From Arenicola marina (Eukaryota > Annelida > Polychaeta > Arenicolidae), in the NCBI GenBank assembly GCA_964019135.1, contig OZ025260.1, positions 12,704,254 through 12,768,253 of the forward strand: a stretch of DNA of 64,000 nucleotides, in the 5' to 3' direction. Below are positions 1-46,100 of the stretch, piece after piece (the first letter of the stretch is position 1; each line of letters begins with the position of its first letter). A program made the translations under genes and the position numbers. The notes beneath the pieces are model-generated. The model did not search any database. It had not been told where the DNA came from and worked only from the letters and a program-made list of their open reading frames with translations.

Positions 1-3000
1 CGATGATGTCACACACCTGACTATGCCCCTCTAGCTTTACACTCCAGAGGGACGATGATGTCACACACCTGACTATGCCCCTCTAGCTTTACACTCCAGC
101 GGGACGATGACGTCACACACCTGACTATGCCCCTCTAGCTTTACACTCCAGCGGGACGATGACGTCACACACCTGACTATGCCCCTCTAGCTTTACACTC
201 CAGAGGGACGATGACGTCACACACTTGACTATGCCCCTCTAGCTTTACACTCCAGCGGGACGATGACGTCACACACCTGACTATGCCCCTCTAGCTTTAC
301 ACTCCAGAGGGACGATGATGTCACACACCTGACTATGCCCCTCTAGCTTTACAATCCAGAGGGACGATGATGTCACACACCTGACTATGCCCCTCTAGCT
401 TTACACTCCAGAGGGACGATGACGTCACACACCTGACTATGCCCTCTAGTTTTACACTCCAGAGGGACGATGATGTCACACACCTGACTATGCCCCTCTA
501 GCTTTACACTCCAGCGGGACGATGACGTCACACACCTGACTATGCCCCTCTAGCTTTACACTCCAGCGGGACGATGACGTCACACACTTGACTATGCCCC
601 TCTAGCCTTACACTCCAGAGGGACGATGATGTCACACACCTGACTATGCCCCTCTAGCTTTACACTCCAGAGGGACGATGATGTCACACACCTGACTATG
701 CCCCTCTAGCTTTACACTCCAGAGGGACGATGACGTCACACACCTGACTATGCCCTCTAGCTTTACACTCCAGAGGGACGATGATGTCACACACCTGACT
801 ATGCCCCTCTAGCTTTACACTCCAGCGGGACGATGACGTCACACACCTGACTATGCCCCTCTAGCTTTACACTCCAGAGGGACGATGATGTCACACACCT
901 GACTATGCCCCTCTAGCTTTACACTCCAGAGGGACGATGATGTCACACACCTGACTATGCCCCTCTAGCTTTACACTCCAGCGGGACGATGACGTCACAC
1001 ACCTGACTATGCCCCTCTAGCTTTACACTCCAGCGGGACGATGACGTCACACACCTGACTATGCCCCTCTAGCTTTACACTCCAGAGGGACGATGACGTC
1101 ACACACTTGACTATGCCCCTCTAGCTTTACACTCCAGCGGGACGATGACGTCACACACCTGACTATGCCCCTCTAGCTTTACACTCCAGAGGGACGATGA
1201 CGTCACACACCTGACTATGCCCTCTTGCTTTACACTCCAGAGGGACGATGATGTCACACACCTGACTATGCCCCTCTAGCTTTACACTCCAGCGGGACGA
1301 TGACGTCACACACCTGACTATGCCCCTCTAGCTTTACACTCCAGAGGGACGATGATGTCACACACCTGACTATGCCCCTCTAGCTTTACACTCCAGAGGG
1401 ACGATGACGTCACACACCTGACTATGCCCTCTAGCTTTACACTCCAGAGGGACGATGATGTCACACACCTGACTATGCCCCTCTAGCTTTACACTCCAGC
1501 GGGACGATGACGTCACACACCTGACTATGCCCCTCGAGCTTTACACTCCAGAGGGACGATGATGTCACACACCTGACTATGCCCCTCTAGCTTTACACTC
1601 CAGCGGGACGATGACGTCACACCCCTGACTATGCCCCTCTAGCTTTGCACTCCAGCGGGACGATGACGTCACACACCTGACTATGCCCCTCTAGCTTTAC
1701 ACTCCAGAGGGACGATGACGTCACACACTTGACTATGCCCCTCTAGCTTTACACTCCAGCGGGACCATGACGTCACACACCTGACTATGCCCTCTAGCTT
1801 TACACTCCAGAGGGACGATGACGTCACACACCTGACTATGCCCCTCTAGCTTTACACTCCAGCGTGACGATGACGTCACACACCTGACTATGCCTCTCTA
1901 GCTTTACACTCAAGAGGGACGATGATGTCACACACCTGACTATGCCCCTCTAGCTTTACACTCCAGCGGGACGATGACGTCACACACCTGACTATGCCTC
2001 TCTAGCTTTACACTCCAGCGGGACGATGACGTCACACACCTGACTATGCCCCTCTAGCTTTACACTCCAGAGGGACGATGACGTCACACACTTGACTATG
2101 CCCCTCTAGCTTTACACTCCAGCGGGACGATGACGTCACACACCTGACTATGCCCTCTAGCTTTACACTCCAGAGGGACGATGACGTCACACACCTGACT
2201 ATGCCCCTCTAGCTTTACACTCCAGAGGGACGATGACGTCACACACCTGACTATGCCCCTCTAGCTTTACACTCCAGAGGGACGATGACGTCACACACCT
2301 GACTATGCCCCTCTAGCTTTACACTCCAGAGGGACGATGACGTCACACACCTGACTATGCCCCTCTAGCTTTACACTCCAGAGGGACGATGACGTCACAC
2401 ACCTGACTATGCCCCTCTAGCTTTACACTCCAGAGGGACGATGACGTCACACACCTGACTATGCCCCTCTAGCTTTACACTCCAGCGGGACGATGACGTC
2501 ACACACCTGACTATGCCCCTCTAGCTTTACACTCCAGAGGGACGATGACGTCACACACTTGACTATGCCCCTCTAGCTTTACACTCCAGCGGGACGATGA
2601 CGTCACACACCTGACTATGCCCCTCTAGCTTTACACTCCAGAGGGACGATGACGTCACACACCTGACTATGCCCTCTTGCTTTACACTCCAGAGGGACGA
2701 TGATGTCACACACCTGACTATGCCCCTCTAGCTTTACACTCCAGCGGGACGATGACGTCACACACCTGACTATGCCCCTCTAGCTTTACACTCCAGAGGG
2801 ACGATGATGTCACACACCTGACTATGCCCCTCTAGCTTTACACTCCAGAGGGACGATGACGTCACACACCTGACTATGCCCTCTAGCTTTACACTCCAGA
2901 GGGACGATGATGTCACACACCTGACTATGCCCCTCTAGCTTTACACTCCAGCGGGACGATGACGTCACACACCTGACTATGCCCCTCGAGCTTTACACTC

Positions 3001-4010
3001 CAGAGGGACGATGATGTCACACACCTGACTATGCCCCTCTAGCTTTACACTCCAGCGGGACGATGACGTCACACCCCTGACTATGCCCCTCTAGCTTTGC
3101 ACTCCAGCGGGACGATGACGTCACACACCTGACTATGCCCCTCTAGCTTTACACTCCAGAGGGACGATGACGTCACACACTTGACTATGCCCCTCTAGCT
3201 TTACACTCCAGCGGGACCATGACGTCACACACCTGACTATGCCCTCTAGCTTTACACTCCAGAGGGACGATGACGTCACACACCTGACTATGCCCCTCTA
3301 GCTTTACATTCCAGCGTGACGATGACGTCACACACCTGACTATGCCCCTCTAGCTTTACACTCAAGAGGGACGATGATGTCACACACCTGACTATGCCCC
3401 TCTAGCTTTACACTCCAGCGGGACGATGACGTCACACACCTGACTATGCCTCTCTAGCTTTACACTCCAGCGGGACGATGACGTCACACACCTGACTATG
3501 CCCCTCTAGCTTTACACTCCAGAGGGACGATGACGTCACACACTTGACTATGCCCCTCTAGCTTTACACTCCAGCGGGACGATGACGTCACACACCTGAC
3601 TATGCCCTCTAGCTTTACACTCCAGAGGGACGATGACGTCACACACCTGACTATGCCCCTCTAGCTTTACACTCCAGAGGGACGATGACGTCACACACCT
3701 GACTATGCCCCTCTAGCTTTACACTCCAGAGGGACGATGACGTCACACACCTGACTATGCCCCTCTAGCTTTACACTCCAGAGGGACGATGACGTCACAC
3801 ACCTGACTATGCCCCTCTAGCTTTACACTCCAGAGGGACGATGACGTCACACACCTGACTATGCCCCTCTAGCTTTACACTCCAGAGGGACGATGACGTC
3901 ACACACCTGACTATGCCCCTCTAGCTTTACACTCCAGAGGGACGATGATGTCACACACCTGACTATGCCCCTCTAGCTTTACACTCCAGCGGGACGATGA
4001 CGTCACACAC
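1..4010. repeat. 52-bp tandem array at the donor of exon w27
   Basis: About 77 copies of a 52-bp unit, continuing left of the window. In gene sense each unit holds GAGGGGCATAGTCAG then GTGTGTGACGTC, a near copy of the exon end GAGGGCATAGTTAG plus its donor. Copies vary at few sites (TGACGTCA/TGATGTCA, CAGAGGG/CAGCGGG, single-C deletions). Rare marker variants recur 1,452 bp apart, showing a higher-order duplication. Holds no gene. Confidence 0.97.
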
Positions 4011-4161
4011 CTAACTATGCCCTCGATCTTCTTCTTGTACTTGAGGTCGATCTTCTCCCTGTACTCTGGCCTCATTAACATGGCGGCGTAGCTGAAGGAC
4101 GAGTTGCGCAGGCCGGCTCGATGACACTCGATGACAGTAGAGGTCAGGATGGGCACGATAT
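4011..4161 (-). CDS. WDR19: WDR19 exon w27 (last in window), flanked by boundary arrays on both sides
   Basis: 151 nt, from ACGTCACAG to TTAG|GTGTGT. It reads (H)[39 protein letters not shown] then [10 protein letters not shown] plus split Arg, matching human to EGMVR. The acceptor side seeds the 57-bp array and the donor side the 52-bp array. The next exon (human RPDISEIEE onward) is left of the window. Confidence 0.97.
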
Positions 4162-7100
4162 CTGTGACGTGACAACATATATATCAGGAAATATTCATTA
4201 CAGCAGGATGGGCAAGGTATCGGTGACGTGGCAATATATATCCGGAAATATTCATTATAGCAGGATTGGCAAGGTATCGGTGATGTAGCAATATATATCA
4301 GGAAATATTCGTTACAGCAGGATGGGCAAGGTATCGGTGATGTGGCAATATATATCCGGAAATATTCATTATAGCAGGATTGGCAAGGTATCGGTGATGT
4401 AGCAATATATATCAGGAAATATTCGTTACAGCAGGATGGGCAAGGTATCGGTGATGTCGCAATACATATCAGGAAATATTCATTACAGCAATATGGACAA
4501 CGTATCGGTGATGTGGCAATATATATCAGGAAATATTCGTTATAGCAGGATGGGCAAGGTATCGGTGATGTGGCAATTTATATATCAGGAAATATTCGTT
4601 ATAGCAGGATGGGCAAGGTATCGGTGATGTGGCAATAGATATCAGGAAATATTCGTTACAGCAGGATGGGCAACGTATCGGTGATGTGGCAATATATATC
4701 AGGAAATATTCATTACAGCAATATGGGCAAGGTATCGGTGATGTGGCAATATATATCAGGAAATATTCGTTATTGCAGGATGGGTAAGGTATCGGTGATG
4801 TGGCAATTTACATATCAGGAAATATTCGTTACAGCAGGATGGGCAAGGTATCGGTGCTGTGGCAATATATATCAGGAAATATTCATTACAGCAAGATGGG
4901 CAAGGTATCGGTGATGTGGCAATATATATCAGGAAATATTCGTTATAGCAGGATGGGCAAGGTATCGGTGATGTGGCAATATATATCAGGAAATATTCAT
5001 TACAGCAATATGGGCAAGGTATCGGTGATGTGGCAATATATATCAGGAAATAGTCGTTACAGCAGGATGGGCAAGGTATCAGTGATGTGGCAATATATAT
5101 CAGGAAATATTCGTTACAGTAGGATGGGCAAGGTATCGGTGATGTGGCAATATATATCAGGAAATATTCATTACAGCAGGATGGGCAAGGTATCGGTGAC
5201 GTGGCAATATATATCAGGAAATATTCGTTACAGTAGGATGGGCAAGGTATCGGTGACGTGGCAATATATATCAGGAAATATTCATTACAGCAATATGGGC
5301 AAGGTATCGGTGATGTGGCAATATATATCAGGAAATATTCATTACAGCAAGATGGGCAAGGTATCAGTGATGTGGCAATATATATCAGGAAATATTCGTT
5401 ACAGTAGGATGGGCAAGGTATCGGTGACGTGGCAATATATATCAGGAAATATTCGTTACAGAAGGATGGGCAAGGTATCGGTGATGTGGCAATACATATC
5501 AGGAAATATTCATTACAGCAAGATGGGCAAGGTAATAAGTGATGTGGCAATATATATCAGGAAATATTCGTTACAGTAGGATGGGCAAGGTATCGGTGAC
5601 GTGGCAATATATATCAGGAAATATTCATTACAGCAATATGGGCAAGGTATCGGTGATGTGGCAATATATATCAGGAAATAGTCGTTACAGCAGGATGGGC
5701 AAGGTATCGGTGATGTGGCAATATATATCAGGAAATATTCGTTACAGCAGGATGGGCAAGGTATCGGTGATGTGGCAATATATATCAGGAAATATTCATT
5801 ACAGCAAGATGGGCAAGGTATCGGTGATGTGGCAATATATATCAGGAAATAGTCGTTACAGCAGGATTGGCAAGGTATCGGTGATGTGGCAATATATATA
5901 TCAGGAAATATTCGTTATAGCAGGATGGGCAAGGTATCGGTGATGTGGCAATTTATATATCAGGAAATATTCGTTACAGAAGGATGGGCAAGGTATCGGT
6001 GATGTGGCAATTTATATATCAGGAAATATTCATTACAGCAGGATTGGCAAGGTATCGGTGATGTGGCAATATATATATCAGGAAATAGTCGTTACAGCAG
6101 GATTGGCAAGGTATCGGTGATGTGGCAATATATATATCAGGAAATATTCGTTATAGCAGGATGGGCAAGGTATCGGTGATGTGGCAATTTATATATCAGG
6201 AAATATTCGTTACAGAAGGATGGGCAAGGTATCGGTGATGTGGCAATTTATATATCAGGAAATATTCGTTACAGAAGGATGGGCAAGGTATCGGTGATGT
6301 GGCAATATATATCAGGAAATATTCGTTACAGCAGGATGGGCAAGGTATCGGTGATGTGGCAATATATATCAGGAAATAGTCGTTACAGCAGGATGGGCAA
6401 GGTATCGGTGATGTGGCAATTTATATATCAGCAAATATTCGTTACAGCAGGATGGGCAAGGTATCGGTGATGTGGCAATTTATATATCAGGAAATATTCA
6501 TTACAGCAATATGGGCAACGTATCGGTGATGTGGCAATATATATCAGGAAATAGTCGTTACAGCAGGATGGGCAAGGTATCGGTGATGTGGCCATTTATA
6601 TATCAGCAAATATTCGTTACAGCAGGATGGGCAAGGTATCGGTGATGTGGCATAATATATATGAAAATATTATTTACAGTAGGAGGGGCAAGGTATCTCT
6701 GATATTATTATAAAACATAAAGAAAAACGGGCATGTCCCCTTTTGAAAAAAGCTTTATTTATTACAGTGGATCTTTCAACATGTGATGCCTCATTATGTT
6801 ACACCACCATATAGCGGACCATGAGACTGACAAGGACACAAGTGGCCCTGGTGCGCACACAAGTCGGACTTACGAGAGGGGAACTTGCTGATGTTGTTGG
6901 CCACTCGACACAACAGCCGGGCGCCTTTCAGATGGTCGCCTCGCTTGACGTGGATCTGGGGAAGACAGGCCAAGATGATGGTGTCAGACAAGGTGATGCT
7001 CAGACTACACGGGGGAAAGTAAGGCGTGCACGGTTAAGGGCTTAACCTTCACCGGTCATGTTCTTAGCTTCACCCTACCATCGTGACAACGCTACTAACC

Positions 7101-10100
7101 AGAAGGGGTGCGTTTGTCGGAGTGTGAGGCGCACCTTGCTCTAGTCACGCCAGCAAGGCGCCGTCGTCTCTTGGCAACATCGGGCCGCCGGCCGCGACTT
7201 TATGTATCGATGGGGACAGTTGGTTTAGTGTTGGTTGTATATTCAGGACGCTTTAACCAATTCTGGTCATATCTTGTCAATGGAAAAAGGAAGGGAAGAG
7301 CGGAGCCATGTCCCCAGGGGAACTCCCTACTCTTTGCAAAGAAGGACATGGGATCTTTATCCTGTGAACACGCAGACATGAACACAGTGGGGCTCGAACC
7401 ACCGATCCACGCGCCGTTAGACTCTCAGTTCGGCAGAGCGCTCAATGCGAGCGCCACTGTCCAACCCACTGAGCTATCGGGGCGGCCCCCGGTGGGGACG
7501 GCGTGACCTCTAGGACTAACCTTGACGAGGATGTAGCTGTGGAGGATGAGCAGGTTGTGAGCCATCTCCGACGGGATCTTGATCTTGTTTTTCTTCAGCT
7601 CCTGGTACATGCTGAACAACACGTCGTGCGCATTGCGGTAGTTACCTGGGGCAGACAAACGGAAATAAACGTCATGATGAAATGGGTTTTGATGAAACAT
7701 ACCCACAGAAGCAGACCTGTACAAGAGAGATCCCATTTGCCGAACTTTTGACCTGCGTTTGCTCCTCCTTGGGCCCTGGTTTATCCCATTTGCCTAACTC
7801 TGACCTGCGTTTGCTCCTCCCTGGGCCCTAGTTTATCCCATTTGCCTAACTCTGACCTGTGCTTTGCTCCTCCCTGGGCCCTGGTTTATCCCATTTGCCT
7901 AACACTGACCTGCGTTCTGCTCCTCCCTGGGCCCTAATTTATCCCATTTGCCTAACTGACATGTGTTTTGCTCCTCCTTGGGCGCTAGCTTATCCCATTT
8001 GCCTAATTCTGACCTGCGTTTTGCTCCTTCTTGGGCCCTAGCTTATCCCATTTGCCTAACTCTGACCTGCGTTTGTTCCCCGGCCCCTGGGCCCTGGTTT
8101 ATCCCATTTGCTTAACTCTGACCTGCGTTCTGCTCCTCCCTGGGCCCTGGTTTATCCCATTTGCCTAACTCTGACCTGTGTTTGCTCCTTCCTAGGCCCT
8201 GGTTTATCCCATTTGCCTACCTCTGACCTGCCTTTGCTCCTCCCTGGGCCCTGGTTTATTCCATTTGCCCAACTCTGACCTGCGTTCTGCTCCTCCTTGG
8301 GCCCTAGTTTATCCCATTTGCCTAACTCTGACCTGCGTTTTGCTCCTCCCTGGGCCCTGGTTTATTCCATTTGCCTAACTCTGACCTGCCTTTGCTCCTC
8401 CCTGGGCCCTGGTTTATTCCATTTGCCTAACTCTGATCTGCGTTCTGCTCCTCCTTGGGCCCTAGTTTGTCGCATTTGCTGCTCCCTGGGCCCTGGTTTA
8501 TTCCATTTGCCTAAATCTGACCTGCGTTCTGATCCTCCTTGGGCCCTAGTTTATCCCATTTGCTTAACTCTGACCTGCGTTTTGCTCCTCCTTGGGCCCA
8601 GGTTTATCCCATTTGCCTAAATCTGACTTGCGTTTGCTCCTCCCTGGGCCCTGGTTTATCCCATTTGCCTAACTCTGACCTGCGTTTGCTCCTCCCTGGG
8701 CCCTGGTTTATTCCATTTGCCTAACTCTGACCTGCGTTCTGCTCCTCCTTGGGCCCTAGTTTATCCGATTAGCCTAACTTTGACCTGCCCTTTGCTCCTC
8801 CCTGGGCCCTGGTTTATCCCATTTGCCTAACTCTGACCTGCGTTTTGCTCCTCCCTGGGCCCTGGTTTATTCCATTTGCCTAACTCCGATCTGCGTTTTT
8901 CTCCTCCCTGGGTCCTGGTTTATCCTATTTGCCTAACTCTGACCTGCGTTCTGCTCCTCCCTGGGCCCTGGTTTATTCCATTTGCCTAACTCCGATCTGC
9001 GTTTTTCTCCTCCCTGGGCCCTGGTTTATCCTATTTGCCTAACTCTGACCTGCGTTTTTCTCCTCCCTGGGCCTTGGTTTATCCCATTTGCCTAACTCTG
9101 ACCTGCCTATGCTCCTCTTTCTGGGCCCTGGTTTATTCCATTTGCCTAACTCCGATCTGCGTTTTTCTCCTCCCTGGGCCCTGGTTTATCCTATTTGCCT
9201 AACTCTGACCTGCGTTTTGCTCCTCCCTGGGCCCTAGTTTATCCCATTCGCCTAACTCTGACCTGCCTATGCTCCTCTTTCTGGGCCCTGATTTATTCCA
9301 TTTGCCTAACACTGACCGGCGTTCTGCTCCTCCTTGGGCCCTAGTTTATTCCATTTGCCTAACTCTGACCTGCGTTCTGCTCCTCCTTGGGCCCTAGTTT
9401 GTCGCATTTGCTCCTCCCTGGGCCCTGGTTTATTCCATTTGCCTAAATCTGACCTGCGTTCTGCTCTTCCTTGGGCCCTAGTTTATCCCATTTGCCTAAC
9501 TCTGATCTGCGTTCTGCTCCTCCTTGGGCCCTAGTTTATCCCATTTGCTTAACTCTGACCTGCGTTTTGCTCCTCCCTGGGCCCAGGTTTATCCCATTTG
9601 CCTAAATCTGACCTGCGTTTGCTCCTCCCTGGGCCCTGGTTTATCCCATTTGCCTAACTCTGACCTGCGTTTTGCTCCTCCCTGGGCCCTGGTTTATTCC
9701 ATTTGCCTAACTCCGATCTGCGTTTTTCTCCTCCCTGGGCCCTGGTTTATCTTATTTGCCTAACTCTGACCTGCGTTCTGCTCCTCCCTGGGCCCTAGTT
9801 TATTCCATTTGCCTAACTCCGATCTGCGTTTTTCTCCTCCCTGGGCCCTGGTTTATCCTATTTGCCTAACTCTGACCTGCGTTTTTCTCCTCCCTGGGCC
9901 CTGGTTTATCCCATTTGCCTAACTCTGACCTGCCTATGCTCCTCTTTCTGGGCCCTGGTTTATTCCATTTGCCTAAGTCCGATCTGCGTTTTTCTCCTCC
10001 CTGGGCCCTGGTTTATCCTATTTGCCTAACTCTGACCTGCGTTTTGCTCCTCCCTGGGCCCTAGTTTATCCCATTCGCCTAACTCTGACCTGCCTATGCT

Positions 10101-13100
10101 CCTCTTTCTGGGCCCTGATTTATTCCATTTGCCTAACACTGACCGGCGTTCTGCTCCTCCTTGGGCCCTAGTTTATTCCATTTGCCTAACTCTGACCTGC
10201 GTTCTGCTCCTCCTTGGGCCCTAGTTTGTCGCATTTGCTCCTCCCTGGGCCCTGGTTTATTCCATTTGCCTAAATCTGACCTGCGTTCTGCTCTTCCTTG
10301 GGCCCTAGTTTATCCCATTTGCCTAACTCTGATCTGCGTTCTGCTCCTCCTTGGGCCCTAGTTTATCCCATTTGCTTAACTCTGACCTGCGTTTTGCTCC
10401 TCCCTGGGCCCAGGTTTATCCCATTTGCCTAAATCTGACCTGCGTTTGCTCCTCCCTGGGCCCTGGTTTATCCCATTTGCCTAACTCTGACCTGCGTTTT
10501 GCTCCTCCCTGGGCCCTGGTTTATTCCATTTGCCTAACTCCGATCTGCGTTTTTCTCCTCCCTGGGCCCTGGTTTATCTTATTTGCCTAACTCTGACCTG
10601 CGTTCTGCTCCTCCCTGGGCCCTAGTTTATTCCATTTGCCTAACTCCGATCTGCGTTTTTCTCCTCCCTGGGCCCTGGTTTATCCTATTTGCCTAACTCT
10701 GACCTGCGTTTTTCTCCTCCCTGGGCCCTGGTTTATCCCATTTGCCTAACTCTGACCTGCCTATGCTCCTCTTTCTGGGCCCTGGTTTATTCCATTTGCC
10801 TAAGTCCGATCTGCGTTTTTCTCCTCCCTGGGCCCTGGTTTATCCTATTTGCCTAACTCTGACCTGCGTTTTGCTCCTCCCTGGGCCCTAGTTTATCCCA
10901 TTCGCCTAACTCTGACCTGCCTATGCTCCTCTTTCTGGGCCCTGATTTATTCCATTTGCCTAACACTGACCGGCGTTCTGCTCCTCCTTGGGCCCTAGTT
11001 TATTCCATTTGCCTAACTCTGACCTGCGTTCTGCTCCTCCTTGGGCCCTAGTTTGTCGCATTTGCTCCTTCCTGGGCCCTGGTTTATTCCATTTGCCTAA
11101 ATCTGACCTGCTTTCTGCTCCTCCTTGGGCCCTAGTTTATTCCATTTGACCTGCGTTCTGCTCCTCCTTGGGCCCTAGTTTATCCCATTTGCCTAACTCT
11201 GACCTGCGTTTTGCTCCTCCCTGGGCCCTAGTTTATTCCATTTGCCTAACTCTGACCTGCGTTTTGCTCCTCCCTGGCGATGATGATGGCAGTGCGCGCC
11301 GCCTCCCGGAACTGCTTCAGCGCCATGTACAGGCGAAACAGGTACTTGGCATCCTGAAACACAGCGCAAGCCAAGGTCAAGGCCGGGTCGTATACACACA
11401 AAGGGACGTTTTAGTTACACATGGGTCCTTATTAAATATTTAGAGTGTAGATACAACAATATTTATCATAACATCATATTTAATAGTCTTAAATCCCCCA
11501 AAATGTACAGTTAATATTTTGTATTTCAAGCACAATGTACATTTCTTATATCAAGAAATAAGATTATATGCGTATGTTGTAGTATAACCAATTACACGGG
11601 CCGTATTACCAGGGACAGATCGAGATGAAGGTGATATGTAATATCTCAAGGAGAGAGTGGGGACTCGGAAGTCAACATTTAGATGCATACGAACAAAAAA
11701 CAGGACGTTATATTGACCAACTAATTTTGACAGAGTTCACGACATAATCAAAGGCTGTACTGTACAGGAAGCTATAATGTACATCAATCTAACAATTGAA
11801 GCAGTCTGTCCTTGGACATCTCTTCATTCGCCTTGATAGTTATCACTTTTTTAACGATTATTTTATAAACTAAACTAAAAAAAATGTAGCGACCAAATCA
11901 TGTTCCAAAGCACAATATTGTACACAGGCAATTCGTAGAATTTTGTAAAATGCAGATGCAGGTCAGATAAATTGCTTCAATCAGTCTTGCCAAGAAGAGA
12001 AACAATGAACAACAATCTGAAAGAAAAAAAGAAATTTCCAGCGACAACCAGGGTTAAACATCTGCCAAATGGCGGGGAATGGATCAGTTTAGGCCGTTTT
12101 TGTACACATCATGTTTTGTGTTCATACCAGGGATAAACTGGGCCAAGGAACCCCCCGGGAAGAAGAAGGGTAAATGGATGAAACATGTCCCAGAGTAGGT
12201 TCCCGGCCCGGATTCGAACCCACGACCTGGTACACATCAAGGCTAATCACCTCCCACCTAAAACCTTCTGGCATAATGCTATGAATTCAATATGAAACCG
12301 ACGCCCGCGTACCGCCATTGTTATAGGCTTGTCAAGACAGTTCCACAGTAGATGATAGCCTAAATATGAAGAGTATATGTCAACTTCAATGATAAATTGA
12401 GCTTTGCACAATATAGCATAAATATGAAGATTATATGCCAACTTCAGGGTTGTATTGCTTTGCACACTTCTCACCACAATAACTTTATATACAAAAACAA
12501 CAACGAGTTTATCATTGAACCCATGCAAAAGTTTCATACGCAGCTGATGTAATGTACCGAGAAAGCCACTTTGTGGAGGTATATGGTCGGTCCTGCCCTA
12601 GATACGCCACCCTGGGCCCACCACACGACTGAACACACGACACACTGTATACTGATATTAATGTACACAGGGGGGGGGGGGGGGTCTCAAAGAGAGGTGC
12701 GTGACTATGCTACATAGTGCCATATATCACACATAGCGTACAACAGAACTCGGAAACGGAAATAAAGAAACAAAAAAACTAAACAAACGTAGCACACTTT
12801 GGCCTCTAAAGACGAAAGATATCCGAGGATTTTAGCATGGTACGAAAGTGAAACTTTAGTATCGAGCGTACGTCAATGCATGCACGAGCCCTTGGCGGTA
12901 TCTACAGGGGCTGCGGGATGTGTTTGTGTGGCGGGAGGATGGAGGGGGCAGGGGGGGGGGGGGCAGGTGGGTGGCACCTTTGGTATGCCATCGGGTTCTC
13001 CCATTAGGAACTCGATGAGTGCGTTAGTCAGCTGGTCGTTGTTGGCTCGGCCGATGGTCTCAATGGCCAGATCCATGGCGCGGTCATCGTCGTTGCTGAT

Positions 13101-19100: not shown

Positions 19101-22100
19101 GAATACATCATTACAAGGAAACAAGCCGCCGAGCCATCGTAGTGACCAGACGGACCGAGGCCAAAGCTACATACTTGGCCACCATTTTGGCGCCGTCTGT
19201 AGACTGTGTCTCCCGAACGATCCGAACAGCTTCCTCGGGATTCTGCAGGTGATCCAGGTTGATTCTGCAGATATAAAGGTCACGCTGACGATTATTACAA
19301 CATCCCGATTAAGATGGCTTCATTAGTCATCGTAACATTTCACATTCATATTGATGCCATTAATTCAATGGCATATTGATGTATGGCATATTGATGTATG
19401 GCATATTGATGTATGGCATATTGATGTACGGTATATTGATGTATGGCATATTGATGTATGGCATATTGATGTATGGCATATTGATGTACGGTATATTGAT
19501 GTACGTAATATTGATGTATGGCATATTGATGTACGGTATATTGATGTATGGCATATTGATGCATGGCATATTGATGTATGGCATATTGATGTATGGCATA
19601 TTGATGCATGGCATATTGATGTATGGGATATTGATGTATGGCATATTGATGTATGGCATATTGATGCATGGCATATTGATGTATGGCATATTGATGTACG
19701 GTATATTGATGTACGGTATATTGATGTACGGTATATTGATGTATGGCATATTGATGTACGGTATATTGATGTATGGCATATTGATGCATGGCATATTGAT
19801 GTATGGCATATTGATGCATGGCATATTGATGTATGGCATATTGATGTATGGCATATTGATGTATGGCATATTGATGTATGGCATATTGATGTATGGGATA
19901 TTGATGTATGGCATATTGATGCATGGCATATTGATGTATGGGATATTGATGTATGGCATATTGATGCATGGCATATTGATGTGTGGCATATTGATGTATG
20001 GCATATTGATGCATGGCATATTGATGTATGGGATATTGATGTATGGCATATTGATGTATGGCATATTAATGTATGGGATATTGATGTATGGCATATTGAT
20101 GTATGGCATATTGATGTATGGGATATTGATGTATGGCATATTGATGTATGGCATATTGATGTATGGCATATTGATGTGTGGCATATTGATGTATGGCATA
20201 TTGATGCATGGCATATTGATGTATGGGATATTGATGTATGGCATATTGATGCATGGCATATTGATGTACGGTATATTGATGTATGGCATATTGATGCATG
20301 GCATATTGATGTATGGGATATTGATGCATGGCATATTGATGTGTGGCATATTGATGTATGGCATATTGATGTATGGCATATTGATGTATGGGATATTGAT
20401 GTATGGCATATTGATGTATGGCATATTGATGTATGGCATATTGATGTATGGGATATTGATGTATGGGATATTGATGCATGGCATATTGATGTGTGGCATA
20501 TTGATGTATGGCATATTGATGTATGGCATATTGATGTATGGGATATTGATGTATGGGATATTGATGCATGGCATATTGATGTGTGGCATATTGATGTATG
20601 GCATATTGATGCATGGCATATTGATGTATGGCATATTGATGTATGGCATATTGATGTATGGCATATTGATGTATGGGATATTGATGCATGGCATATTGAT
20701 GTGTGGCATATTGATGTATGGCATATTGATGCATGGCATATTGATGTATGGGATATTGATGTATGGCATATTGATGTATGGCATATTGATGTATGGCATA
20801 TTGATGTATGGCATATTGATGTATGGGATATTGATGCATGGCATATTGATGTGTGGCATATTGATGTATGGCATATTGATGCATGGCATATTGATGTATG
20901 GCATATTGATGTATGGCATATTGATGTATGGCATATTGATGTATGGGATATTGATGTATGGGATATTGATGCATGGCATATTGATGTGTGGCATATTGAT
21001 GTATGGGATATTGATGCATGGCATATTGATGTGTGGCATATTGATGTATGGCATATTGATGTATGGCATATTGATGTATGGGATATTGATGTATGGGATA
21101 TTGATGCATGGCATATTGATGTGTGGCATATTGATGTATGGCATATTGATGTATGGCATATTGATGTATGGCATATTGATGTATGGCATATTGATGTATG
21201 GGATATTGATGCATGGCATATTGATGTGTGGCATATTGATGTATGGCATATTGATGCATGGCATATTGATGTATGGGATATTGATGCATGGCATATTGAT
21301 GTGTGGCATATTGATGTATGGCATATTGATGTATGGCATATTGATGTACGGCATATTGATGTGTGGCATATTGATGTATGGCATATTGATGCATGGCATA
21401 TTGATGTATGGGATATTGATGTATGGCATATTGATGTATGGCATATTGATGTATGGCATATTGATGTATGGCATATTGATGTATGGGATATTGATGTATG
21501 GCATATTGATGTATGGGATATTGATGTATGGCATATTAATGATTGCCATTTTGATGTATGGCATATTAACTGTATTGAGTTAATTAAATTGAATTACATT
21601 AGGAATGAAAAAAAAATACGATACCATGAATATATTAAAAGAAATATGGATAATGTCATGGTTGTTTCCGACATTGAAGAACCGCTTAAATATGGCAATA
21701 TGAGCGAGATAAAAAGACGAGCAGGACCCCGAGGCGGCGCCGCTTGACATGAGCAAGTACAGGACCCCGAGGCGGCGCCGCTTGACCAGTTGTACAACCG
21801 CTTTACGGGTTACTGATTCCTGTAGAAACCACAGTCTTTACAAGTGATGACGACATGAGCAAGTACAGGACCCCGAGGCGGCGCCGCTTGACCAGTTGTA
21901 CAACCGCTTTACGGGTTACCGATTCTGTAGATTCTTTGCAACGCGGCGTTCAGATGACTACCAACCTGATGACGTTGTCCCAGTCCTTGGCGCTGGCGTA
22001 CGCCATAGCCGCGTCCTTGAAACGTCCTTCAGCCTCCTTGGCACGTGCGTACTGACCATGGATCTTCAGAGAGGTCACCTTGGGAAGCAACTCGCCAACC

Positions 22101-34100: not shown

Positions 34101-37100
34101 GGGGTAGCTGTGGCTATTAGTGGTCTCATACTTCATTAAACACCAGGTCCAGGTCAATGGTATACCGCAGGGGTAGCTGTGGCTATTAGTGGTCTCATAC
34201 TTCATTAAACTCCAGGTCCAGGTCAATGGTATACCGCAGGGGTAGCTGTGGCTATTAGTGGTCTCATACTTCATTAAACTCCAGGTCCAGGTCAATGGTA
34301 TACCGCAGGGGTAGCTGTGGCTATTAGTGGTCTCATACTTCATTAAACTCCAGGTCCAGGTCAATGGCATACCGCAGAGGTAGCTGTGGCTATTAGTGGT
34401 CTCATACTTCATTAAACTCCAGGTCCAGGTCAATGGCATACCGCAGGGGTAGCTGTGGCTATTAGTGGTCTCATACTTCATTAAACTCCAGGTCCAGGTC
34501 AATGGTATACCGCAGGGGTAGCTGTGGCTATTAGTGGTCTCATACTTCATTAAACTCCAGGACCAGGTCAATGGTATACCGCAGGGGTAGCTGTGGCTAT
34601 TAGTGGTCTCATACTTCATTAAACTCCAGGACCAGGTCAATGGTATACCGCAGGGGTAGCTGTGGCTATTAGTGGTCTCATACTTCATTAAACTCCAGGT
34701 CCAGGTCAATGGCATACCGCAGGGGTAGCTGTGGCTATTAGTGGTCTCATACTTCATTAAACTCCAGGACCAGGTCAATGGTATACCGCAGGGGTAGCTG
34801 TGGCTATTAGTGGTCTCATACTTCATTAAACTCCAGGTCCAGGTCAATGGTATACCGCAGGGGTAGCTGTGGCTATTAGTGGTCTCATACTTCATTAAAC
34901 TCCAGGTCCAGGTCAATGGTATACCGCAGGGGTAGCTGTGGCTATTAGTGGTCTCATACTTCATTAAACTCCAGGTCCAGGTCAATGGTATACCGCAGGG
35001 GTAGCTGTGGCTATTAGTGGTCTCATACTTCATTAAACTCCAGGTCCAGGTCAATGGTATACCGCAGGGGTAGCTGTGGCTATTAGTGGTCTCATACTTC
35101 ATAAAACTCCAGGTCCAGGTCAATGGTATACCGCAGGGGTAGCTGTGGCTATTAGTGGTCTCATACTTCATTAAACTCCAGGACCAGGTCAATGGTATAC
35201 CGCAGGGGTAGCTGTGGCTATTAGTGGTCTCATACTTCATTAAACTCCAGGTCCAGGTCAATGGCATACCGCAGGGTAGCTGTGGCTATTAGTGGTCTCA
35301 TACTTCATAAAACTCCAGGTCCAGGTCAATGGTATACCGCAGGGGTAGCTGTGGCTATTAGTGGTCTTATACTTCATTAAACTCCAGGTCCAGGTCAATG
35401 GTATACCGCAGGGGTAGCTGTGGCTATTAGTGGTCTCATACTTCATTAAACTCCAGGTCCAGGTCAATGGTATACCGCAGGGGTAGCTGTGGCTATTAGT
35501 GGTCCCATACTTCATTAAACTCCAGGTCCAGGTCAATGGTATACCACAGGGGTAGCTGTGGCTATTAGTGGTCTCATACTTCATTAAACTCCAGGTCCAG
35601 GTCAATGGTATACCGCAGGGGTAGCTGTGGCTATTAGTGGTCTCATACTTCATTAAACTCCAGGTCCAGGTCAATGGTATACCGCAGGGGTAGCTGTGGC
35701 TATTAGTGGTCTCATACTTCATTAAACTCCAGGTCCAGGTCAATGGTATACCGCAGGGGTAGCTGTGGCTATTAGTGGTCTCATACTTCATTAAACTCCA
35801 GGTCCAGGTCCAAGACATTAATCCCAATATATTACTTCATCAAAATAGAATACCCGTTAATTTTTTGGGGAAGCACTATTATAATTATTCACCATTATCC
35901 CATATGACGCGCTAAAGCATCAAGGAATACTCAACGGCGATCGTTCGACGTTTCCTGACGTAAATTGAGGTTCCCGTTTGAAGGGCTAGTGCGCTGTACG
36001 CATGAGACCGGCAGTCATGATATCCCTTTCGTTAAAATACTATTCCAGATACCATGAATTCAACAAATCGTACTGCTGCAAGTTGCCTCCTTTCTCAAAG
36101 ATGTCAATTTATCTAAATATCTACATAAACACTTCACCTGTCTATATTTAGCGTGATCAACAATTAAACTGGAACCTGCATCTACGTCACTTGGCGCGAA
36201 GATTACGACTTTGATCGTTCAGAGTTTGATGCCAGAGTTTGTTCAGAATTTGTGACTAATACGCGCCACACGTTCCTATAGGCCATATTTTTTGCATAAC
36301 CACCCAGATTGCTTTAATATTTACTCTTCTATGGGTTTATTATATTAATTTTACCAAATAATTTACCCAGAAACTGGCCTTTAAGCCTAGTGCATCAGGT
36401 CTTATACATATCTCATCTAATGACAATGAAACTCCCCCACACTTGTAAGACACAAACTAATAACGCCATATATGTGTGGGCAAGACACAGAGTGAAATAT
36501 TAATGCGGACCACATATTTCGGACGATGAATGGATTAGTGTCGAGTAACCTCTGTAAACACACGGGCCAAACGGGGCCAAACGGGGCCAAACGGGGCCAA
36601 GCGAGTTTTGTTTAAAGAAAATAATGAGCATTAAAGTGCCTCAAGGGTTTACACATATTAGTAAACATTAAAGTGCCTCAAGGGTTTACACATAACAGTT
36701 AACATTGAGCGCCTCAAGGTTTTACACATAACAGTAAACATTGAGCGCCTCAAGGTTTTACACATAACAGTAAACATTGAGCGCCTCAAGGTTTTACACA
36801 TAACAGTTAACATTGAGCGCCTCAAAGTTTTACACATAACAGTAAACATTGAGCGCCTCAAGGTTTTACACATAACAGTAAACATTGAGCGCCTCACGTC
36901 GGTGCCGTAGATGAGGAAGTCCTGCGTCATGTCGTGACACGTGATCCTGTGATCCATGTGCTCCTTGTCCGGGAACAGCTTGGTGTCCCTCTCGTCAGAC
37001 AGACCGGCGTCCCCCTCGATCTGACAATTGCCAAACATGGCGTCATATTGCGAGAGCGACAATGTGAAATAAAGACGATACCTGCTTGGTGTAATATTAA

Positions 37101-40100
37101 TATAGAATGTAAAACAATTATACAGAACAAAATATATGAAGGAACAGAGTGGTATTGCAACCGGCAGTAAATCACTTGCTATACTGTCTAGGTTACAGTA
37201 GCAGTTTGGAATAGTTCTTTGGCAGGTACCTTTATGAGTTTCCCGATAGTTGTGTCTTTGAGGCTGAAATTCGGACTGAAAATGGACCGCCTTCATGTTG
37301 CCATCGACGTAGAGTTCAGGCTGGCGCAGTCATAAAGTTAATACTACTTGATAGATATGGAATGATCTACTTCTAAACATACGGGAAAGCCAGACTTGTT
37401 TATTTTTATCAGTTTGACAGTAACTATAGACAAATTTGTTAAAACAATTTAAGCATTCCGCGCCAAGGGCCCCGACGGATATGATGTTTTGTAGTGCATG
37501 CCTGGGGTTTGCACTATGTACAGTACATGTAGAATTATGGCCAGTGATAGTCTGCACTCGTTCACATATTTTTAGACAATTCTCCTCGGTGTCGCAACAA
37601 GAATCACTCGACGAAATCCGCCGCCTAAACGGACGTTTTGCATCCAATACGTGACGTCATATTTTAATATTTCGCGAGTTATCGATTGGTGTGACTTAAC
37701 GACTCGGTCTCCCCATCCTGGTGCGTTACATCGTTGACGAACAAAAGAGGTTATATTTGTTCTTATATGCGTATATTTTCCTTCGCTTGGAGGTTTTTAA
37801 TGTTCGTGTAAGTTCTTTCGGCGTTCGTCTCCACAGTTGAAACTCCATTGACGCATTATTTGCTTGAGGCCGCCTGGGATCTAATGAAAGCTAAACGTGT
37901 TTATATACAATGTAGCCGCGGCAACTTACCATGTGCAGGTTGACTTTGCCCTCGAAGCTGACTGCGGCGTAGTCTGTGTTCATCTTGCACGACTGGACCG
38001 TGCCCAGGTACTCCCTATCCTTGAGCTTCTCGGGACCTACACACACAGGACATGGGTAGAGCGACTAGTGTTTAGGGCCAGCTCTTTGAACACATAGAAT
38101 AAACTAGTCTTGGTTTCACAAACATTGAAAATATAGCAAGTGACAAGAGTGACTGTAATAATAATAATAATAATAATCTTTATTGCCATGAAGAGTACAC
38201 AAATCAAGATAATACCGAACTGGTTGGCAAGGAGCAGAAGCCGAGGCTTATTCGCTCAAAAAAAAATATATAATAAATAAAAATGAATAAAAAAATAACT
38301 CAAAACAACAACAAAAAACAGGAACATGGAACGGTAGTACAGCAATCTAGATAATATCGATTTGGCCCAATCGTTGCACTATAATAGTTCTTTCTTTCTA
38401 TTAACTCAGTAACATATATGATTATATTGTGATGGCTAGTTACACATTAAATTAACATTAGTTAAATTACTCGTATCAATTATATTTAACAAACTATTCT
38501 TAGTATTTCTCTTAAAAAGGTGAAGCGATGATTGAAAGTTTACCTTACCAAACCATTTATTAAAAATATATATCCCATTATATACTGTATTGTAACCCAG
38601 ATTCTGTTGTTCATACCCCACACACTGGGGGAGACCTACCTGTGTCATTACGGCCGTAGAACCAGGCCATGTTGTTCATGCCCCACACACTGGGGGAGAC
38701 CTACCTGTGTCATTGAGGCCGTAGAACCAGGCCATGTTGTTCATGCCCCACACACTGAGGGAGACCTACCTGTGTCATTGAGGCCGTAGAACCAGGCCAT
38801 GTTGTTCATGCCCCACACACTGAGGGAGACCTACCTGTGTCATTGGGGCCGTAGAACCAGGCCATGTCGTTCATGCCCCACACACTGGGGGAGACCTACC
38901 TGTGTCATTACGGCCGTAGACCCAGGCCATGTTGTTAATGCCCCACACACTGAGGGATACCTACCTGTGTCATTGAGGCCGTAGAACCAGGCCATATTGT
39001 TCATGCCCCACACACTGGGGGAGACCTACCTGTGTCATTACGGCCGTAGAACCAGGCCATATTGTTCATGCCCCACACTGGGGGAGACCTACCTGTGTCA
39101 TTGAGGCCGTAGAACCAGGCCATGTTGTTCATGCCCCACACACTGGGGGAGACCTACCTGTGTCATTGGGGCCGTAGAACCAGGCCATGTTGTTCATGCC
39201 CCACACACTGGGGGAAACCTACCTGTGTCATTGGGGCCGTAGAACCAGGCCATGTTGTTCATGCCTCACACACTGGGGAAGACCTACCTGTGTCATTGGG
39301 GCCGTAGAACCAGGCCATGTTGTTCATGCCTCACACACTGGGGGAGACCTAGCTGTGTCATTGGGGCCGTAGAACCAGGCCATGTTGTTCATGCCTCACA
39401 CACTGGGGAAGACCTACCTGTGTCATTGGGGCCGTAGAACCAGGCCATGTTGTTCATGCCCCACACACTGGGGGAGACCTACCTGTGTCATTGAGGCCGT
39501 AGAAACAGGCCATGTTGTTCATGCCACACACACTGGGGGAGACCTACCTGTGTCATTACGGCCGTAGAACCAGGCCATATTGTTCATGCCCCACACACTG
39601 GGGGAGACCTACCTGTGTCATTGAGGCCGTAGAACCAGGCCATGTTGTTCATGCCCCACACACTGGGGGAGACCTACCTGTGTCATTGGGGCCGCAGAAC
39701 CAGGCCATGTTGTTCATGCCTCACACACTGGGGGAGACCAACCTGTGTCATTGGGGCCGTAGAACCAGGCCATGTTGTTCATGCCCCACACACTGGGGGA
39801 GACCTACCTGTGTCATTACGGCCGTAGAACCAGGCCATATTGTTCATGCCCCACACACTGGGGGAGACCTACCTGTGTCATTGGGGCCGTAGAACCAGGC
39901 CATGTTGTTCATGCCCCACACACTGGGGGAGACCTACCTGTGTCATTGGGGCCGTAGAACCAGGCCATGTTGTTCATGCCTCACACACTGGGGGAGACCT
40001 ACCTGTGTCATTGGGGCCGTAGAACCAGGCCATGTTGTTCATGCCCCACACACTGGGGGAGACCTACCTGTGTCATTGAGGCCGTAGAACCAGGCCATCT

Positions 40101-43100
40101 TGTTCATGCCCCACACACTGGGGAAGACCTACCTGTGTCATTGGGGCCGTAGAACCAGGCCATGTTGTTCATGCCTCACACACTGGGGGAGACCTACCTG
40201 TGTCATTGGGGCCGTAGAAACAGGCCATGTTGTTCATGCCCCACACACTGGGGGAGACCTACCTGTGTCATTGAGGCCGTAGAAACAGGCCATGTTGTTC
40301 ATGCCACACACACTGGGGGAGACCTACCTGTGTCATTACGGCCGTAGAACCAGGCCATATTGTTCATGCCCCACACACTGGGGGAGACCTACCTGTGTCA
40401 TTGAGGCCGTAGAACCAGGCCATGTTGTTCATGCCCCACACACTGGGGGAGACCTACCTGTGTCATTGGGGCCGCAGAACCAGGCCATGTTGTTCATGCC
40501 TCACACACTGGGGGAGACCAACCTGTGTCATTGGGGCCGTAGAACCAGGCCATGTTGTTCATGCCCCACACACTGGGGGAGACCTACCTGTGTCATTACG
40601 GCCGTAGAACCAGGCCATATTGTTCATGCCCCACACACTGGGGGAGACCTACCTGTGTCATTGGGGCCGTAGAACCAGGCCATGTTGTTCATGCCCCACA
40701 CACTGGGGGAGACCTACCTGTGTCATTGGGGCCGTAGAACCAGGCCATGTTGTTCATGCCTCACACACTGGGGGAGACCTACCTGTGTCATTGGGGCCGT
40801 AGAACTAGGCCATGTTGTTCATGCCCCACACACTGGGGGAGACCTACCTGTGTCATTGAGGCCGTAGAACCAGGCCATCTTGTTCATGCCCCACACACTG
40901 AGGGAGACCACCTGTGTCATTGAGGCCGTAGAACCAGGCCATGTTGTTAATGCCCCACACACTGAGGGATACCTACCTGTGTCATTACGGCCGTAGAACC
41001 AGGCCATGTTGTTCATGCCCCACACACTGGGGGAGACCTACCTGTGTCATTGAGGCCGTAGAACCAGGCCATATTGTTTATGCCCCACACACTGGGGGAT
41101 ACCTACCTGTGTCATTGAGGCCGTAGAACCAGGCCATATTGTTCATGCCCCACACACTGGGGGAGACCAACCTGTGTCATTGAGGCCGTAGAAACAGGCC
41201 ATGTTGTTCATGCCCCACACACTGGGGGAGACCTACCTGTGTCATTACGGCCGTAGAACCAGGCCATATTGTTCATGCCACAAACACTGAGGGAGACCTA
41301 CCTGTGTCATTACGGCCGTAGAACCAGGCCATATTGTTCATGCCCCACACACTGGGGGAGACCTACCTGTGTCATTGAGGCCGTAGAACCAGGCCATGTT
41401 GTTCATGCCCCACACACTGGGAGAGACCTACCTGTGTCATTGGGGCCGCAGAACCAGGCCATGTTGTTTATGCCTCACACACTGGGGGAGACCTACCTGT
41501 GTCATTGGGGCCGTAGAACCAGGCCATGTTGTTCATGCCCCACACACTGGGGGAGACCTACCTGTGTCATTGGGGCCGTAGAACCAGGCCATGTTGTTCA
41601 TGCCCCACACACTGGGGGAGACCTACCTGTGTCATTGGGGCCGTAGAACCAGGCCATGTTGTTCATGCCTCACACACTGGGGGAGACCAACCTGTGTCAT
41701 TGGGGCCGTAGAACCAGGCCATGTTGTTCATGCCCCACACACTGGGGGAGACCTACCTGTGTCATTGAGGCCGTAGAACCAGGCCATGTTGTTCATGCCC
41801 CACACACTGGGGGAGACCTACCTGCGTCACTGAGGCCGTAGAACCAGGCCATGTTGTTCATGCCCCACACACTGGGGGAGACCTACCTGTGTCATTGAGG
41901 CCGTAGAACCAGGCCATGTTGTTCATGCCCCACACACTGGGGGAGACCTACCTGCGTCACTGAGGCCGTAGAACCAGGCCATGTTGTTCATGCTCCACAC
42001 ACTGGGGGACACCTACCTGTGTCATTGAGCCCGTAGAACCAGGCCATGTTGTTCATGCCCCACACACTGAGGGAGACCTACCTGTGTCATTGAGGCCGTA
42101 GAACCAGGCCATGTTGTTCATGCCACACACACTTGGGAAGACCTACCTGTGTCATTACGGCCGTAGAACCAGGCCATATTGTTCATGCCCCACACACTGG
42201 GGGAGACCTACCTGTGTCATTGAGGCCGTAGAACCAGGCCATGTTGTTCATGCCCCACACACTGAGGGAGACCTACCTGTGTCATTGAGTCCGTAGAACC
42301 AGGCCATGTTGTTCATGCCCCACACACTGGGGGACACCTACCTGTGTCATTGAGGCCGTAGAACCAGGCCATGTTGTTCATGCCCCACACGCTGGGGGAG
42401 ACGTACCTGTGTCATTGAGGCCGTAGAACCAGGCCATGTTGTTCATGCCGCACACGCTGGGGGAGACCTACCTGTGTCATTGAGGCCGTAGAACCAGGCC
42501 ATGTGGTTCATGCCTCACACACTGGGGGAGACCTACCTGTGTCATTGAGGCCGTAGAACCAGGCCCTGTTGTTCATGCCTGTGACGAGGTGGAAGGGCCC
42601 GAGGCCGATGAAGGCTGGTTCCACATCTGTTTGTACCGTCAGAGCACCCTCCTGTAGAACGACAATTAATAACATTTAAGGGTTACTTGAAGGACACAGT
42701 AAACTATAACGGCCATATCAAGACGGAGGAGCTTAGCTACCTCAAGTGGTAAGCGGACTCAGCTGCAGCCCAACAGATCAGCAGTTTAAGAAATGTAAAA
42801 CCTACATCTCGGGAAAGTTCCCTTAAGCTGTATTTTCAGGGTTCACATAGGCAAGGTTCCATCAAATTCAAAGCACTAGAAAAATTCAAGGACTTTTCAC
42901 GGAAATTTTTTACTTTCTCTGCTCTATTTTAAGCATACAAATAACAAAACTTGGGACTACATTTTATGTATACAATCTTTGATATGCGGAAATAAGGAAT
43001 GACAACGAGAAGGCAGTGTCCACGTTTATTTATTACCAACCAACAGCATTTATTGGCGTTAATCACTTTACTTTTATTAATTGCTACTTTTTCAATTCAG

Positions 43101-46100
43101 CCAGCTTTTGTTCGATTTTTTCTTGGGTCTTTGCCAGTGTTCGGTCCAGTTTAAAATCAATCTCTTTTCATGGTAACTGCCCTAGTTTTAAGCAAATTCA
43201 AGTACATTGAATCGACTTCAACGCCCATTTCTGTTTTTATGACCTTTTCCAGGCATCAGTCAAAATTTAAGCCCTTTTCAAGCCTGTGCGCACCCTGATT
43301 TTATTTTTCCGGGATGTTCCTTGACCCAAAATGGGCTTGATGTGCACAAGGCACGATTATATCATTTAATGCTTGCGACAACAGAGAAATTAGGGTAAGT
43401 TAGTGACTTCTAAAGAGACGACGTCTGACCTATTAATCGATCATTCATTTTCGATGGCCTCGTAAAAATATATAACATTACATCACACTATTTCAGAAAT
43501 AAATCATGACAGGCTTGTTAAATCGACCCATGGGAAAACTGGCAAGATCGAAGTGGATTGGTTTCAATACAACGACGCTAAAATACGCAATAGAGCGCAT
43601 GATCTGCGGTCAGCGCCTATATCTTATGGTTGCCACATGGACTCCTATCCATGTATCACGGCATCGGAGACCCGACCCCAAGTGACCACATCATAATATA
43701 GGAATAATACTGCATATATTCCTGAATATCGACATACACGTTATCCAGATATTGTCATAAATACTTCACAATACCGCGACTACACTCTAAGAACCAAACA
43801 ACGGAACGCATTTGAAACAGGAGATAACTATTAAGAATAATACATAGTTACGAGACTAACATTATCAGTCGCGAGCGAAAATATGAAATAAATACGGTAA
43901 CTGCCTAGCGTAATATATAATACAGTAAGTAAAACATTTAAAGAGAACACAACTAAATAACTGAATGAACAGAATATTTCTACTGCCAGTAAATCAGATG
44001 ATATACTAAGATGCGGCAGCTTAAGTTTTAAATAGTTTCTTGACAGGTACCTTCATGAGTTTCCCGATAATTGTGTCCTTCAAGCTAAATTTGGACTGAA
44101 AATTGACCACCTTAAAGTTGCCATCGACGTAAAGAGTTCAGGCTTACTCGATAGCTCACTCTCAAAGGAACAAAGAAATTTTTTGGTTTTATATTACATA
44201 TGTAATATTTACACAATTGTAGCGTATTGATTTAGAATTAAACTTGAAAACATAAGTGACGTCATGTTTCGCAGTGACGTCATCATTGTCCATTTTCTGT
44301 TGCATGTGATCCTGCGAGATCATTTTTATAAGTGATGCCTTTATTGTTATTTGCACGTTGTACAATTGTCATTTAATGTCACATCGATTAGTGACGGCAC
44401 TCCCCAACATTTACCTGTTGTATATGACCTCGACATCACTTTAATCAATGACGTCATCACTGCCTTTTACCTGTTGTATAATTGCCCCTTAAAGGAAGCC
44501 GCCAGCCTGGCCTCTAACGCTGCTTTACCGATTCATATAGTACCCAAGTGTCTATCCTCAAAAGTACAGCATTTCCCGTCCTGTGTGTAGCTCACAGTAA
44601 AATTTAGAAGTGACCGCCAGCCACGATGTTGCCGCTTAACCAGGCGGCAGCCCTTTTTGGAGGTGTGTCCGCGATTGACCAACCAGGAGGCGATACTCTA
44701 ATTATATTTAAATCGGAAATGACGCCTACTGTGTGAGCAAAACAAGAGCGCGTGATCATCGTTAATATAAACAGCTGCGAATCTAACTCCAATTGTGGCC
44801 ATTTTTGCAGGAGACAAACGTCGCCAGACGTATATCAATTTGTCTGGATGGTATTTTCCATGACACATTAAGATCGCGGTCTACTGCGCGGTTTGAAACT
44901 GCCGCAATTCATCCGTAAAAATTACATCCATCAGTGACATCATCTCCGCCCATTACCTGCTGTATGCGGTCCTGCAGCGTCACCTCCAGAAGTGACGTCA
45001 TCACCGCCCATTACCTGTTGTATGTGGTCCTGCAGCGTCACCTCCAGCAGTGACGTCATCTCCGCCCATTACCTGCTGTATATGGTCCTGCAGCGTCACC
45101 TCCAGCAGTGACGTCATCACCGCCCATTACCTGCTGTATATGGTCCTGCAGCGTCACCTCCAGCAGTGACGTCATCTCCGCCCATTACCTGCTGTATGTG
45201 GTCCTGCAGCGTCACCTCCAGCAGTGACGTCATCACCGCCCATTACCTGCTGTATGTGGTCCTGCAGCGTCACCTCCAGCAGTGACGTCATCACCGCCCA
45301 TTACCTGCCGTATGTGGTCCTGCAGCGTCACCTCCAGCAGTGACGTCATATCCGCCCATTACCTGCTCTATATGATCCCGACATCACCTCCAGCAGTGAC
45401 GTCATCACCGCCCATTACCTGCTGTATATGGTCCTGCAGCGTCACCTCCAGCAGTGACGTCAGGTAGGCGAGGCGGGTGTGGTAGGCCGCTCCTAGGATG
45501 GGCAGCTTGGTGAGGTAGACGTGGAGGCTGCCCTTAGGGGTGGACACGGCCAGCAGCTGTCCGTCGTCCGTCCACTCGATGCGGTCCAGGGAGCGCTCCT
45601 CATCCAGGGTGATGATGGCGTAGATCTCCTTCGGGTCAGACAGGTCGTGTATCTTGACGCTACAGAAGCGGGGTCGCACAACAGTACGGCACATTTTTAA
45701 TACTATTTATAATATTTAATATATGGACATTTAAATGGAATTTGAACTAAGCAGGGGACAAGCGAGGTCGCAGATATTTATATCGAAACACTGGTAGAAC
45801 AATGAACCTTGAACTAACAGGGATAGATTTATGTTACGTTTTTGGTCGCTTTATCTAGTTAGCGGATTCATAGTTTGTAGTAAAGCGCCGAAATCGTGCC
45901 TTGACTCTGCTCGATATACATCGGCAGCCTTCACACCCAAACAATACCCCCCCCCCGCCCCCACCCACCAATAATCCCGGAATAGTATTTAGATGTATCG
46001 ATACGTATCTATACATATTACCACTACAACTTTTCAAAAACCAAATGCAGAAATCTTCCGTCTCCTATGAAAATAATAATTCAAAAACAAGCCAATCGGT

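Follow-up and report, generated by a model that had tools for sequence, protein, structure and literature searches.

Minisatellite arrays across eight splice junctions of a WDR19 gene: a rich new case of the kind known as amphioxus mirages and chicken exon stuttering

Why do so many splice junctions of a single gene lie inside the repeat units of minisatellites? The gene is WDR19 in a 64,000-nucleotide stretch of Arenicola marina DNA (the window, in which all positions below are counted). Tandem arrays occupy some 65% of the window and, between the outer WDR19 junctions, 21,861 of the 43,323 nt. An earlier note on this DNA had named ten array edges at splice junctions and suggested that the junctions, or R-loops or pausing there, nucleate tandem amplification. 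We prefer another explanation, to which we give a probability of roughly 0.65: tandem duplications across junctions were favoured by GC-rich sequence, expanded as ordinary minisatellites, and have been tolerated through the preference of splicing for the exon-proximal site.

The WDR19 gene and the arrays at its junctions

The gene (WDR19/IFT144) was modelled on the minus strand by tblastn with GT/AG and phase fitting, giving 28 exons between 47333 and 4011, a count that takes in two versions of exon 23 (23a and 23b). The query was human WDR19, which aligns with PDB 8fgw_C over residues 1-1342. Phase and local sequence served to fit the splice sites; 6 of the 25 junctions were settled by reading the sequence, and a 38-nt exon at 27962-27925 was located in the same way. 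One frame of the predicted mRNA is open throughout, over 1038 codons if exon 23a is used and 1039 if 23b is, and the 23a version aligns end to end and is collinear with human residues 202-1238. Human residues 1-201 and 1239-1342 found no placement within the window, and their exons presumably lie outside it. The exons measure 38-241 nt (median 111), and the map reproduces both the numbering w1-w27 and the 56 junction ends of the earlier note. No tRNA genes were found in the window, nor any Rfam match at the gathering threshold over 11300-47400.

TRF arrays were compared with this exon map, and the register between exon and unit was obtained by wraparound alignment for ten arrays. All ten junctions named before were recovered. 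At eight of them the junction lies inside the unit, namely at the donors of w27, w24, w21, w15, w5 and w4 and at the acceptors of w27 and w11; these spanning units are 52-80 bp long and present in 9.3-77.5 copies. They form tandem arrays of minisatellite-size units in introns, and the boundary falls within the unit, as in an amphioxus mirage, in 8 of the 10 aligned and 8 of the 21 counted arrays. An exon edge with its splice site has been copied through the adjacent intron, as in chicken exon stuttering. The remaining 11 of the 21 neither span nor nearly abut a junction.

All exons and arrays given here are on the minus strand. Exon w27 (4011..4161) carries a junction-spanning array at either side: a 52-bp array of 77.5 copies across its donor (1..4030, 20 exon bases), which runs off the window, and a 57-bp array across its acceptor (4145..6703, 17 exon bases), where AG is absent in 43 of 44 decoys, that is, copies of the true site. 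The donor of w24 (11257..11353) is spanned by a 53-bp array (7730..11277, 21 exon bases, GT in 51/64 decoys), that of w21 (18511..18635) by an 80-bp array (17044..18560, 50 exon bases, GT in 18/18) and that of w15 (26853..26963) by a 77-bp array (25790..26896, 44 exon bases, GT in 13/13). A 58-bp array crosses the acceptor of w11 (exon 29097..29263, array 29229..30917, 35 exon bases, AG in 28/28). Finally, the donors of w5 (42537..42651) and w4 (45419..45659) lie in a 65-bp array (38605..42579, 43 exon bases, GT in 59/60) and a 58-bp array (44924..45462, 44 exon bases, GT in 8/8), respectively. The composite nature of the units was thus correctly described before, though not their proportions: 17-50 exon bases and 14-40 intron bases were measured against the 14-46 and 18-60 claimed.

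Two further arrays had been said to abut junctions. This holds for the 36-bp array at 36611..36896, which starts at intron +2 of donor w7, 1 nt away from the junction, and whose consensus has TT at the place of the true donor's GT. It is a loose description of the 69-bp array at 34085..35810, which ends 14 nt upstream of acceptor w8 and leaves the AG and the adjacent pyrimidine-rich stretch outside.

In six of the eight spanning arrays the exon-side copy agrees with the array consensus at 96-100%, a level that derivation from the exon edge would predict. The arrays at w27 reach 86% and 90%, and among the eight only these two have the exon-side copy as their most diverged one; for the globin mirages of amphioxus, the boundary copy was reported to be exempt from homogenisation. 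The seven spanned introns that can be measured are now 1,665-4,500 nt long, and three of them shrink to only 116, 210 and 228 nt when the arrays are collapsed.

Could the arrays be artefacts of assembly? A 200-bp N gap at 53615-53814 adjoins an array, and the draft-genome version of one globin mirage seemed aberrantly assembled (PMC3087553). The copies in the present arrays, however, differ among themselves and show higher-order periodicity, for example at 363 and 160 bp, and eight separate arrays meet the true junctions of a fully open gene. The authors of the chicken study, moreover, went back to raw nanopore reads and confirmed the general structure for PHF8 (PMC12954441). We regard an artefact as very improbable, although the copy numbers may not be exact.

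Excess over chance and the question of hotspots

The earlier note had held chance overlap to be unlikely, with the junctions taken as points in 43 kb. We replaced this by the placement of founder units: the null concerns the position of the founder, each array being collapsed to one unit, which gives 22,977 nt with 3,266 nt of exon. The array at 54186-64000 and a 25-base poly-A run were left out of the counts, and overlapping TRF rows were merged by hand. Four sets were used: all 21 arrays, 17 (length at least 100, at least 3 copies), 16 (period at least 30, at least 3 copies) and 15 (length at least 250).

With uniformly placed founders, 2.03-2.59 spanning arrays are expected against the 8 observed (P 0.00026-0.0021 over the four sets; 2.59, P 0.0021 for all 21 and 2.22, P 0.00062 for the 17), and circular shifts of two sets gave means of 2.06-2.40 (P 0.0022-0.0025). 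Exons are richer in GC than the collapsed introns (0.571 against 0.413), and GC-matched founders raise the expectation to 3.33-4.06 (P 0.0044-0.025 over the four sets; 4.06, P 0.025 for the 21 and 3.84, P 0.016 for the 17), so that composition accounts for part of the excess. Placement within each array's own intron, where the first array was given probability 1 because its intron is cut by the window, leads to 3.63-4.44 (P 0.0028-0.023 over the four sets; 4.44, P 0.023 and 3.72, P 0.0042 for the same two). The excess, about 1.8- to 3.9-fold in one gene and by a post hoc test, is real but modest. The earlier argument from chance was therefore too strong, since a fair null already gives about 2 to 4.4 arrays.

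In addition, the centres of all eight units lie within 15 nt of the junction. Under uniform overlap P is 0.004 (maximum) and 0.019 (mean) for such clustering, and when 10 intron bases are required at donors and 23 at acceptors, P becomes 0.014 and 0.060; the clustering is suggestive only, the 15-nt cut-off having been chosen after the data were seen. Non-spanning arrays were not significantly near junctions, either as 13 arrays (KS P 0.12) or as 11 after removal of the two near-abutting ones (P 0.27).

These figures bear on a rival in which junctions are hotspots that nucleate tandem duplication, whether by bound splicing machinery, by pausing of the polymerase, by conflict between transcription and replication or by R-loops. 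It gains from the eight arrays observed where matched nulls expect 3.33-4.44, from the closeness of the unit centres (P 0.004-0.014 for the maximum and 0.019-0.060 for the mean) and from the further array beginning 1 nt from donor w7. The same excess after matching (P 0.0028-0.025) and the same clustering count against purely random founders, which predict neither. On the other hand, the excess is only about twofold once matched, the non-spanning arrays keep no significant closeness to junctions, and the border figure reported for chicken may, we infer, be partly geometry. The R-loop version, as proposed before, gains no support from polarity, because coding-strand GC skew is positive in four units and negative in four, with no common sign. 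Junction hotspots therefore seem to us possible and rather doubtful. Slightly less probable still is a bolder combination, in which junctions would be preferred nucleation points, mirages and avian exon stuttering would be one process, and the survival of arrays would be filtered by transcription order, with donor decoys intact and acceptor decoys weak, dead or outside the unit.

The direction of growth does not decide the matter. The arrays do extend only into the intron, as had been noticed, and this is a consequence of geometry rather than a clue to mechanism. A duplication across a donor joins the full exon to the first copy, and one across an acceptor joins it to the last, so the extra copies are intronic if the exon-proximal site is used. 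Since any duplication across a junction places its extra copies on the intron side of that site, the direction carries no mechanistic information.

Decoy splice sites and their tolerance

From the sequence of the arrays, splicing would have to pick the true site among up to 78 near-copies. In the six donor arrays, GT is kept in 224 of the 240 decoys, 134 decoys are identical to the true 9-mer, and 204 of the 240 equal or exceed the score of the true donor on a simple matrix derived from the 27 other donors of the gene; in the w27 donor array 67 of the 77 outscore it. In the two acceptor arrays AG is kept in 29 of 72 decoys (1/44 in w27 and 28/28 in w11), and none of the 72 reaches the true-site score. 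As copies within an array are not independent, this is a contrast of six arrays with two. The near-abutting w7 and w8 arrays carry no copy of a GT or AG splice site. A filter set by the order of transcription or by exon definition would fit the contrast between donors and acceptors, without being proved by it.

Of the eight unit lengths, seven cannot be divided evenly by three, so that a decoy one unit off would shift the frame. Read-through at the true donor reaches an in-frame stop after 11-51 nt of intron in 5 of the 6 donor arrays and after 100 nt for w27, and starts at the first three upstream acceptor copies of w27 and w11 meet a stop in all six cases. With such shifts and stops, accurate choice of the exon-proximal site should matter.

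How could such arrays have arisen and persisted? According to the explanation that we prefer, a short tandem duplication of 52-80 bp would have straddled a junction by happenstance, such founders being favoured in GC-rich sequence, for example at exon edges. Unequal exchange or slippage may then have expanded and homogenised the arrays to about 9 to 78 copies. They would be tolerated because every extra copy is intronic and splicing prefers the exon-proximal site. A true donor is transcribed before its decoys and lies closest across the exon. The decoys of an acceptor are transcribed ahead of it, and arrays would survive there if their decoys are weaker or dead; this acceptor side of the explanation rests on two arrays.

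The lengths of the spanned introns and of the exons suit exon definition. Carranza et al. (2022, PMC9225289) report that long flanking introns, at similar strengths, favour the site nearest across the exon, and short flanking introns the one nearest across the intron. At 3' sites the overall preference for the upstream site was reduced, not plainly reversed, with long introns, which makes upstream acceptor decoys the more dangerous kind and agrees with the donor/acceptor contrast seen here. Two findings of that report count against the explanation: this preference at 3' sites, and the dominance of the stronger 5' site in 86% of events, where most w27 decoys outscore the true donor. A young array may also have been riskier than a long one, given the three host introns of 116-228 nt before expansion. 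In amphioxus, the Adh3 and globin mirages were described as leaving regular splicing undisturbed (PMC3087553).

A functional role for the arrays, with decoy donors recruiting U1 snRNP along long introns or tuning WDR19 splicing, would draw on the 224 intact GTs. Variation in the exon-derived part of the units is nevertheless not lower than in the intron part (Wilcoxon P 0.38), which gives no sign of selection keeping the decoys intact. GT has been lost in 13 of the 64 w24 decoys and AG in nearly all of the w27 acceptor decoys, and the near-abutting pair does without any splice-site copy. We therefore consider such a role improbable, though less so than an assembly artefact.

Amphioxus mirages, exon stuttering and the scope of the case

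The arrays had been likened to mirages, rightly so, since published descriptions give the same anatomy (PMC3087553, PMC3902484). According to these papers, amphioxus mirages occur at Adh3, the globins BflGb6 and BflGb9, TnC and PGBD5. As in WDR19, their unit contains an exon-intron boundary, donor or acceptor, the copies are intronic, and AG/GT is kept in many copies. They differ in scale: WDR19 has eight spanning arrays in one gene, with about 9-78 copies each, whereas the BflGb6 mirage was reported with units of 150-160 bp, 6 in one haplotype and 3 in another, BflGb9 with a 157-bp duplicate, and Adh3 with units of 10-72 bp (PMC3087553).

Exon stuttering was reported in chicken for 236 introns of 115 genes, 190 of the 236 on GC-rich dot chromosomes (PMC12954441, 2026). 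Similarly to WDR19, an exon edge and its splice site are copied through the neighbouring intron and the coding exons stay intact. The exon part, 20-187 bp with a median of 36 in chicken, compares with 17-50 in WDR19, and the 1-44 copies (median 4) with up to 77.5. The GC-rich setting of the dot chromosomes, as reported there, is not matched, the collapsed WDR19 introns having 41% GC and the exons 57%. The chicken paper calls the phenomenon novel and names gerbil genes as a further case; a term search of PMC12954441 found no 'mirage', and 'amphioxus' only in a cited title.

Extra splice signals brought into a gene by tandem duplication also recall the model of intron gain from duplicated AG/GT proto-splice sites, cited in PMC3087553. 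In WDR19, unlike in that model, no new intron was seen, and the joined exons form one frame that is collinear with human WDR19.

WDR19 is a rich new case of the kind known from amphioxus mirages and chicken exon stuttering. What appears new is the presence of eight spanning arrays in one gene and the donor/acceptor contrast among decoys, the latter with two acceptor arrays only. Each array is a natural splicing experiment, in which a conserved gene sets up to 77 decoys, many of them scoring at least as high as the true site, against that site. If RNA shows use of the exon-proximal site only, this would count as in vivo evidence that exon-centred pairing outweighs site strength, and would tie the scattered amphioxus reports to the newly described avian instability.

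Some smaller observations concern the units themselves. The register excess at the ends of the ten aligned arrays, considered as a sign of founding microhomology, ranges from 2 to 65 bases and is not interpretable. In a search for orphan mirages with 19 units at E 0.05, no unit matched another array or any exon. The w4 and w15 units have partial matches in their own introns outside their own arrays, and the other out-of-array matches are short (14-16 nt) and lie in unique sequence. Strict G-quadruplex motifs number 11 in the window, three of them within the w21 array.

Two versions of WDR19 exon 23

Two versions of exon 23 were mapped in WDR19/IFT144 on the minus strand, one of 49 codons at 13805-13659 and the other of 50 codons at 13127-12978, separated by a gap of 531 nt. 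They are 52% identical to each other and 59% and 56% identical to human, respectively. Each has its own AG and GT and is in frame, and the reading frame is preserved by either version. The two are likely a mutually exclusive exon pair within IFT144.

Other repeats in the window

A nested repeat with periods of 40, 140, 180 and 320 bp lies at 15120-15893. Derivation from a tRNA was suspected by eye; ARAGORN found no tRNA gene in the whole window, and Rfam gave no match at the gathering threshold in 11300-47400, this repeat included in both searches. The w19-w20 intron carries a 2.2-kb array of a 15-bp unit (19368-21567), which has no link to any WDR19 splice junction. TRF placed a 47-bp array at 47462-53614, and because a 200-bp N run (53615-53814) immediately follows it, these coordinates are the assembled extent and the real length may differ. 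A 28-bp-unit array, G-rich on the plus strand, occupies 54186-64000 and continues past the window edge, so that 9.8 kb is the part inside.

Unit matches outside the arrays

Partial matches to the repeat units spanning the donors of exons w4 and w15 were found in the same introns but outside the arrays (44271-44285, 44449-44479 and 24453-24478), and are possibly remnants of older or longer arrays.
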